Shown here one piece after another: positions 19,580-19,899 of a DNA stretch of 64,000 bases. A program made the position numbers and the translations under genes. Source of the stretch: Rhizobacter sp. AJA081-3 (lineage in GTDB: Bacteria > Pseudomonadota > Gammaproteobacteria > Burkholderiales > Burkholderiaceae_C); assembly GCF_017795745.1 (NCBI RefSeq), contig NZ_CP059067.1, positions 4,030,001-4,094,000 of the forward strand, written 5' to 3'. Below the pieces are notes generated by a model, which was not told the DNA's origin, made no database searches, and saw nothing but the letters and a program-made list of their open reading frames with translations. How positions within the stretch are numbered: the stretch's first letter is position 1; each line of letters starts with the position of its first letter.

Positions 19580-19667
19580 GGCAGCCCGCCGGTCTCGCCC
19601 GGCCGGCGAGATCCTTTCTTCTGCTGGCCCAGAAGAAAGGACCCAAAGAAGAGGGCCTGAACACGAT
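19580..19667 (-). repeat. intergenic hairpin repeat, copy 1
   Basis: This 88-bp element contains an 11-bp perfect stem (19613-19623 with 19630-19640) around the 6-nt loop CTGGCC, flanked by conserved GCAGCCCGCCGGT and CAAAGAAGAGGGCCTG-type arms. It matches copy 2 (19812-19899) in inverted orientation. It resembles the CTTTCTT...AAGAAAG repeats scattered between genes in Burkholderiales. It lies between dapF and the acyltransferase gene. Confidence 0.75.
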
Positions 19668-19811
19668 CTGGCCGCTGCCGCTGGCTAGAGGGTTCGGCTG
19701 TTGAAGGCCCAGGTGAACGAACCAATGGCTCGTCCAACACGCGCTCGGTGGTGCAAGCCTGCAGATCGGGCCACAGGCCGCCTCTGGTCTGCTGCCAGCA
19801 CAACGGATCGA

Positions 19812-19899
19812 ATCGTGTTCCAGGCCCTTTGCTTTGGTGACTTTCATTTGGGCCAGCAAATGAAAGTTACCGCCGGCCGGGCGCGACCGGCGGGCTGCC
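19812..19899 (+). repeat. intergenic hairpin repeat, copy 2 (inverted)
   Basis: This is the inverted partner of the repeat at 19580-19667. Its 11-bp stem (19840-19850 with 19857-19867) surrounds the loop GGCCAG, the reverse complement of the copy 1 loop. The stem sequences of the two copies differ, yet each remains perfectly paired, which indicates selection for the hairpin. The flanks (ATCGTGTTCCAGGCCC and CCGGCGGGCTGC) match copy 1. About 144 nt of unique sequence separates the copies. Confidence 0.75.

Follow-up and report, generated by a model that had tools for sequence, protein, structure and literature searches.

The two facing hairpins at positions 19580–19899 of the window (the whole stretch of DNA analyzed, 64,000 nucleotides) are the two ends of one element of about 320 bp that contains no transposase gene. 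The copy in the window is probably a non-autonomous mobile element with folded termini as its recognition signal, and a relative, free of cargo, of a class of gene cassettes. It occupies the spacer between two minus-strand genes, from the stop codon of the one for a lipid A acyltransferase (PF03279) to the start of dapF (PF01678). The inverted hairpins described in the sequence-only reading of this spacer were confirmed: the inverted arms were 97% complementary over 29 nt and 80% complementary over 46 nt, and the complete left (LE) and right (RE) ends were 83% complementary over 86 nt. The left hairpin (19612–19641, TCCTTTCTTCTG-CTGGCC-CAGAAGAAAGGA) comprises 12 perfect pairs, and the right hairpin (ACTTTCATTTG-GGCCAG-CAAATGAAAGT) comprises 11. 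When folded as one strand, 19580–19899 gave −219 kcal/mol, against −150.6 ± 5.7 for shuffled sequences (z −11.9). The parts of the element are as follows.

19580–19899, no strand assigned: whole element, putatively non-autonomous, about 320 bp; six copies of 290–320 bp in its own genome, with ends nearly invariant and interior 76–97% alike
19580–19665, minus strand: left terminal inverted repeat (LE), with the minus strand as its pyrimidine (Y) strand; 83% complementary to RE over 86 nt
19586–19608, minus strand: LE outer GC-rich hairpin (P3/PK2 region); in the family, 206 of 276 distinct stretches downstream of units have a stem of at least 5 pairs, compared with 24% of shuffled ones
19609–19614, minus strand: LE foot, GGATCT, read in the sequence
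19615–19622, minus strand: LE R arm, AGAAGAAA, read in the sequence
19626–19630, minus strand: LE S1b, GGGCC, in the hairpin loop, read in the sequence
19631–19638, minus strand: LE Y arm, TTTCTTCT, read in the sequence
19639–19644, minus strand: LE linker, GGGTCC; pairs with the foot GGATCT with two G-U; the foot covaries in the family
19645–19652, minus strand: LE L1, the putative third strand Y3, TCTTCTTT; parallel Hoogsteen match to R at 8/8
19653–19657, minus strand: LE S1a, GGCCC; its partner is S1b in the hairpin loop; covariation in the family
19666–19812, no strand assigned: variable, gene-free interior, in which the longest run without a stop is 49 codons
19813–19899, plus strand: right terminal inverted repeat (RE), with the plus strand as its pyrimidine (Y) strand; placed by complementarity and the alignment of copies
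19823–19827, plus strand: RE S1a, GGCCC, read in the sequence
19828–19835, plus strand: RE L1, the putative third strand Y3, TTTGCTTT; G opposite the T-A pair of the stem, by Hoogsteen match
19836–19841, plus strand: RE linker, GGTGAC; pairs with the foot GTTACC with one G-U
19842–19849, plus strand: RE Y arm, TTTCATTT, read in the sequence
19850–19854, plus strand: RE S1b, GGGCC, in the hairpin loop, read in the sequence
19858–19865, plus strand: RE R arm, AAATGAAA, read in the sequence
19866–19871, plus strand: RE foot, GTTACC, read in the sequence
19870–19893, plus strand: RE outer GC-rich hairpin (P3/PK2 region), from the family stem statistics and the sequence

Both ends contain a 49-nt unit. 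On the pyrimidine strand, its parts follow one another as a, Y3, linker, Y, a', AGC, R and foot; each strand of the element carries one unit, at the 3' end of that strand. A unit detector applied to the 64-kb window found exactly one unit per strand, with 0 matches in 1.55 million shuffled strand-bases.

A chance local duplication had been envisaged in case no further copies existed, but six full copies were found in the own genome and many more in relatives. When the complete own genome (5.40 Mb) was searched with the end, the twelve strong matches obtained were exactly six inverted pairs of 290–320 bp, which align with almost invariant ends and differing interiors. In all six, the TTCTTCTG-type stem is always on the left and the ATTTG-type stem always on the right. 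Hence, the earlier observation that the stems differ and yet each one pairs stands, but the independent maintenance of pairing deduced from it does not: the difference is fixed per end, and since the six copies share the same stem type at each end, it represents one old compensated difference within this genome rather than repeated maintenance. Examination of pairing covariation, which had been proposed as a check, revealed real covariation in the wider family only, with no independent instance within the own genome.

The close relative Piscinibacter sp. Ejby BATAC.337 (G002) carries copies at three of the sites occupied in the own genome (G000), the dapF site among them, and at a fourth site a copy that has decayed. 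Searches with joined flanks detected three sites occupied in G002 alone and two occupied in G000 alone, the other genome being empty there in each case; this comparison counts five sites, one more G002 site having given no clear call. The element moves: intact copies of about 320 bp are found at new sites, in both directions within Piscinibacter. No target-site duplication was seen at the G000/G002 sites, whose empty spacers are so short and diverged that exact junctions could not be made out. The element of the own genome has several attributes of a MITE, namely terminal inverted repeats, no transposase gene and insertion polymorphism between close relatives. The MITEs and mobile insertion cassettes of Bacillus have the ends of known IS elements and target duplications. 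The present element shares with them the terminal inverted repeats, the lack of a transposase, the optional passenger gene and the insertion polymorphism, but no matching IS was found for it, and no duplication at the sites compared. Additionally, three Piscinibacter genomes share an insert of about 48 bp (GGTACTCGCCAACTTCGCTGCGCGAAGT... type) at the same place within a hairpin stem, and stems of both types are affected (L082 ~3034, L086 ~3034, L087 ~3034 and L090 ~3310).

Related hairpins with different stems and loops were found in other genera. A half-open stem pattern matched 25 of 300 genomes of the order (backward control, 0), and a looser pattern matched 35 of 369 genomes of the class, two of these 35 having only non-hairpin matches among those listed and the backward control also giving scattered single matches. 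The pattern scan of named genomes gave at least 120 stretches, including ones from Rubrivivax, Methylibium, Caldimonas, Lysobacter, Dyella, Pseudodesulfovibrio and Robiginitalea; the last of these, a member of the Bacteroidota, has two complete units arranged as the same outward pair. Two stretches of viral contigs matched the pattern, and the plasmid and phage collections searched gave no match. When the units were compared with Rfam, nothing was obtained at the gathering level and the weak matches were judged to be due to chance; an anti-hemB match in L274 was rejected (23 bits against a cut-off of 49.5), and it lay beside the unit, not inside it.

The paired form is not universal across the family: in the order/class set, 37 of 42 sites had a single unit with no partner within 700 nt. 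Two Lysobacter loci (L216 and L219) had two units in the opposite order, with their 3' ends facing, within about 100 nt. In the genome G331, the single units of one chromosome arm were mostly on one strand (six on the minus strand, 0.1–0.5 Mb), a bias that may be due to replication direction or gene orientation.

Regarding the architecture of the unit, Y pairs with R, which is the hairpin noted from the beginning, and a pairs with a' in its loop, resulting in an H-type pseudoknot in which the helices S1 and S2 cross and both covary. Loop L1 (Y3) runs parallel to the purine strand of S2 and matches R by the Hoogsteen code: T on A, C on G and G on T. The G.T-A triad is part of the pyrimidine triplex motif. 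The telomerase RNA pseudoknot triple helix of the Kluyveromyces lactis type is arranged as S1a-L1-S2a-S1b-L3-S2b, and its L1, which consists of pyrimidines, is parallel to the purine strand of S2. The present units have the same order of elements and the same parallel L1, but the telomerase pseudoknot is a component of a eukaryotic RNP and not the end of a repeat, whereas the units have eight steps and a strict code and are located in bacterial mobile elements. On the basis of the sequence patterns, the unit is predicted to form a triple helix.

The rule for L1 was written down before the new genomes were inspected. As a first prediction, two new stems with a displaced T-A pair were expected to have G at a given place, and both had it. 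A second round of forecasts was written before sixty new regions were inspected (about 60 places from the class scan, leaving out the hairpinless G451, G529 and G491:C229, and G432 at a contig edge; units with at least six S2 pairs were kept). These forecasts held wherever the unit was intact; for the broken stem L334, neither version of the forecast came true. Thus, AATAGAAA was accompanied by the L1 TTGTCTTT and AAATAAAA by the L1 TTTGTTTT; AAATGAAA with another loop had the L1 TTTGCTTT; AAACGAAA had the L1 TTTCCTTT, at a place where T or C had been allowed; and the loops GGACA, GGCCG, GGATA and GGGCG each had their complement ahead of them, apart from some deviations at the last pair. The exceptions were an L1 that was replaced (L332, L333, L352 and L364), cut off (L385) or off by one (L334 and L376).

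The fit of L1 to R was complete in 107 of the 128 distinct 49-nt units with at least seven S2 pairs. At the five free positions of these units (the columns fixed by the wide search patterns TTT...AAA, GG...GC and AC/GT being uninformative), T was on A in 409/437 cases, C on G in 149/159, G on T in 37/41 and C on C in 2/3, with one stem type only behind the C-G letter of the code. For the 15 distinct R sequences, the code was obeyed at 71 of the 75 free positions, against a mean of 46.3 and a maximum of 61 in 100,000 permutations. In 20 distinct L1/Y/R sets (25 minus the five with a replaced L1), the code accounted for 92% of positions, register shifts for 46–57% and a copy of Y for 63%. The three strands of the unit therefore covary. 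That the mirror-like L1 is only a by-product of purine-rich composition or local duplication, with no triplex involved, is very unlikely: the resemblance of L1 to Y that would favor it arises because both are T-rich, whereas the permutation excludes composition, G is placed exactly opposite T in four different stems with the register of L1 changing with the stem, and Hoogsteen contact is the only explanation for the parallel match. The proposal that the third strand tracks R and not Y was rejected; among 11 stems with one broken pair, six followed R, four mirrored Y and one did neither, a split that single mutations would give.

The sequence-only reading had also suggested selection for structure, and this was strongly corroborated by the helices as well as by the third strand. 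In 64 aligned sequences (chosen by script from 132 distinct ones, at least five letters apart), 99.0% of cells were paired, compared with 85.6% when shuffled and 38–59% when slid. Nine pairs had changed on both sides, with 124 such cells against 33.0 (shuffled) and 1–15 (slid); further pair types showed no excess (17 against 17.6 shuffled). S1 was paired in 168 of 200 cells from 40 distinct haplotypes, where permutation gave a mean of 129.9 and a maximum of 149; foot pairs 3–5 were formed in 102 of 114 cells from 38 haplotypes, where it gave a mean of 66.1 and a maximum of 81. Mismatches on the Y strand were G-T rather than A-C in a ratio of 21:4 in S1, 129:2 in the foot and 3:3 in S2, and of 45:1 at the pair adjoining the invariant AC/GT alone. 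Since the G-T mismatches in excess on the Y strand would be A-C clashes on the other strand, the Y strand is the one that folds.

The linker measured 6 nt in 155 of 162 units. The deep groove of A-RNA is narrowest at a 6-bp offset (10.0 angstrom by standard helix parameters, used here as a plausibility check). The heavy use of G-U together with a linker of the same length as this offset inclines us towards RNA rather than single-stranded DNA as the active form. The full pairing of the foot and all eight triples may not coexist, and a two-state switch of the unit is possible. A compact second fold was located downstream of the foot (in the 30 nt downstream of the units; 19586–19608 and 19870–19893 in the window), its first stem covarying strongly. 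A second pseudoknot (PK2) is not claimed for this region: its hairpin S1' is well supported and its S2' weakly (4 pairs in 135/276 stretches against 24% of shuffled ones; 5 pairs in 24/276 against 9.8%), although such a pseudoknot is possible in some genera.

A folded RNA strand would also suit a role at the RNA level, in which the unit protects or processes mRNA 3' ends, as a REP-like stabilizer or as a barrier to Rho or an exonuclease, with mobility being incidental. This explanation is considered unlikely. It agrees with the tolerance of G-U on one strand, and in the order/class set the sites avoid divergent promoters (20 convergent, 21 co-directional and 3 divergent among 44, compared with 18, 45 and 18 among 81 other gene pairs), with 34 of 46 cases in which the gene lying 5' of the Y strand runs in the same direction. 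Nevertheless, the 8-kb set was near even (73 same and 63 opposite), with a mix of sites resembling the baseline; the gene-orientation data are thus mixed, suggestive in one set and absent in the other. Furthermore, two-ended elements have one unit per strand, and no T-run terminator is present. In particular, the bidirectional intrinsic terminator put forward earlier was not borne out, as no T run follows the named hairpins and two weak terminator-like matches were obtained against 0.6 ± 0.8 in shuffled sequences.

Some of the 267 loci with units that were examined had the same ends bounding longer stretches. In this cassette form, inverted repeats of about 96–309 bp surround 0.5–1.2 kb, mostly of lower GC, with a single gene. 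The single-gene cargoes encoded proteins of 298 aa (G009), 175 aa (G189), 151 aa (G347) and 125 aa (G458); G073 had a cargo of 165 aa and also a methyltransferase, and Methylibium RBC061 had SLATT and DUF5677 proteins (L174:802–1413 and L245:1542–2381). The stretches in L394, L400 and L430 contained no clear gene.

The site of the G189 cassette was compared in 14 genomes of the genus: six had a cassette, seven a gap of at most 46 nt and one a gap of 175 nt. The six cassettes, from six species, contained five cargoes (175 aa; 188 aa; RelA/SpoT twice; 213 aa; 304 aa), the RelA/SpoT-domain cargo (PF04607) being present in two species (L474 and L477). Cargo is therefore exchanged at one site. All six were in one orientation, with a GC content of 0.43–0.47 inside and 0.57–0.60 outside; the finder detected both units in three of them and one in a fourth, and the two with a 7-pair stem were read by eye. 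None of these six cassettes encoded a transposase. In the search for an autonomous transposon with the same ends, only transposase-less cargo was found between ends, barring an IS30-like insertion at L364. This insertion (L364:549–1614), a transposase named by its look and split in two frames, is located between the L1 and the hairpin of a unit. BoxC-like G/C-rich triplex motifs were noticed beside or outside the ends at L424:2407–2440, L093 ~3384, L101 ~2740, L476 and L481, and at the G189 site BoxC-like copies flank the cassettes and persist in the empty sites.

No mobilizing enzyme was found. The sequence-only reading had offered a REP-type element moved by a RAYT-like (Y1) transposase, a REP/REPIN identity that is now extremely improbable, even though inverted hairpin pairs, intergenic location and multiple copies are common to both and Y1 proteins are encoded in 13 of the 16 element-bearing genomes of the second set. 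Y1/RAYT (PF01797) was absent from seven element-bearing genomes, the own genome (G000) and G001, G002, G005, G331, G699 and G701, in the two sets searched (14 and 16 genomes), and no unit was present in the flanks of about 1.5 kb of any of 41 Y1 loci. Y1 transposases are thereby excluded as the general partner. In the window sequence, moreover, the foot of the hairpin carries neither a GTAG nor a CGTC tag, and the element differs from REPINs in its third strand, pseudoknot and cargo-bounding ends.

The closest known relatives are the BoxC/PIT triplex repeats. These bacterial motifs of classes I–IV, with pairs of types A and B, were described by Holder et al. (2015, PMC4666352), a paper on the intrastrand triplex repeats BoxC, PIT and TM-ECO that also refers to work by Hoyne and Maher. 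The resemblance lies in three consecutive intrastrand-triplex blocks, the intergenic location and the multiple copies, and the inverted pairs that sometimes occur there always combine two types, as LE and RE do here. However, BoxC is G/C-rich with a 3-nt second loop, while the present units have A/T-rich blocks and, beyond BoxC, an S1 pseudoknot, a linker of 6 nt that is itself paired, G opposite the pyrimidine interruptions, and a position at the ends of a moving element with cargo forms. In the available text of PMC4666352, the word "pseudoknot" does not appear and the motifs are not linked to mobile elements or transposons.

This kinship raises the possibility of a DNA-level triplex repeat: an intrastrand triplex of the Y or R strand, as in BoxC/PIT, would stall polymerases, and the presence and absence of copies would result from instability and inverted-repeat recombination. 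We regard this as somewhat unlikely. The blocks of the unit (third strand, pyrimidine arm and purine arm) do follow the order of the class IV motifs on the Y strand and of the class II motifs on the R strand (Holder et al., 2015, PMC4666352), 12 of 17 BoxC-like motifs are no more than 600 nt away from a unit, and no transposase was found. On the other hand, intact elements of about 320 bp are present at new sites, and some sites that are empty in related species harbor cargo cassettes bounded by the same ends; neither the G-T bias nor the S1 helix would be expected of a plain intrastrand triplex, and the paired 6-nt linker fits an A-form (RNA) geometry.

Among other repeats, the Beta-proteobacterial repeat element of Bordetella (BRE; Hot et al., 2011, PMC3110155) is likewise intergenic in Burkholderiales and variable in its sites, but the text of that paper, which gives no sequence, describes it as head-to-tail repeats of about 90 bp with 69% GC. 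The present repeat is not named in the accessible part of a survey of stem-loop families (PMC2267715). A literature search, with subscription papers mostly outside its reach, provided no description or name for these ends.

The preferred reading is thus that of a mobile element with folded ends. Each terminus would fold on its pyrimidine strand as an H-type pseudoknot, with S1 formed by a/a' and S2 by the foot and Y/R; L1 would occupy the S2 major groove and serve there as the third strand, in parallel Hoogsteen contact, and the GC-rich hairpin would come after the pseudoknot. The folded terminus would most likely be the recognition signal for a putative enzyme that acts in trans to excise or insert the element, and cargo could be exchanged either through such movement or when the long repeats recombine with one another. 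The window copy would then be the cargo-free, MITE-like form of a class whose same ends bound single-gene cassettes. Integron gene cassettes carry one attC each and depend on the IntI integrase; the present ends are inverted pairs, unlike attC arrays. A wider proposal, put forward only tentatively, is that of a cross-phylum mobile gene-cassette system with pseudoknot ends bearing an eight-step triple helix, in RNA or single-stranded DNA, which a candidate recombinase or reverse transcriptase would read, the element of the window being its cargo-free form.

Covariation proofs for natural triple helices are few, and here three strands covary, with a third-strand code, including G opposite T-A, that gave correct predictions in unseen genomes. 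The units constitute a large natural data set on third-strand recognition. These results explain a widespread intergenic repeat of Burkholderiales and relatives, apparently nameless according to the literature search, and point to a transposase-less cassette system that shifts single low-GC genes (RelA/SpoT-like, SLATT, DUF5677, methyltransferase and many uncharacterized ones) between species. The question of which enzyme moves such elements becomes directly testable.
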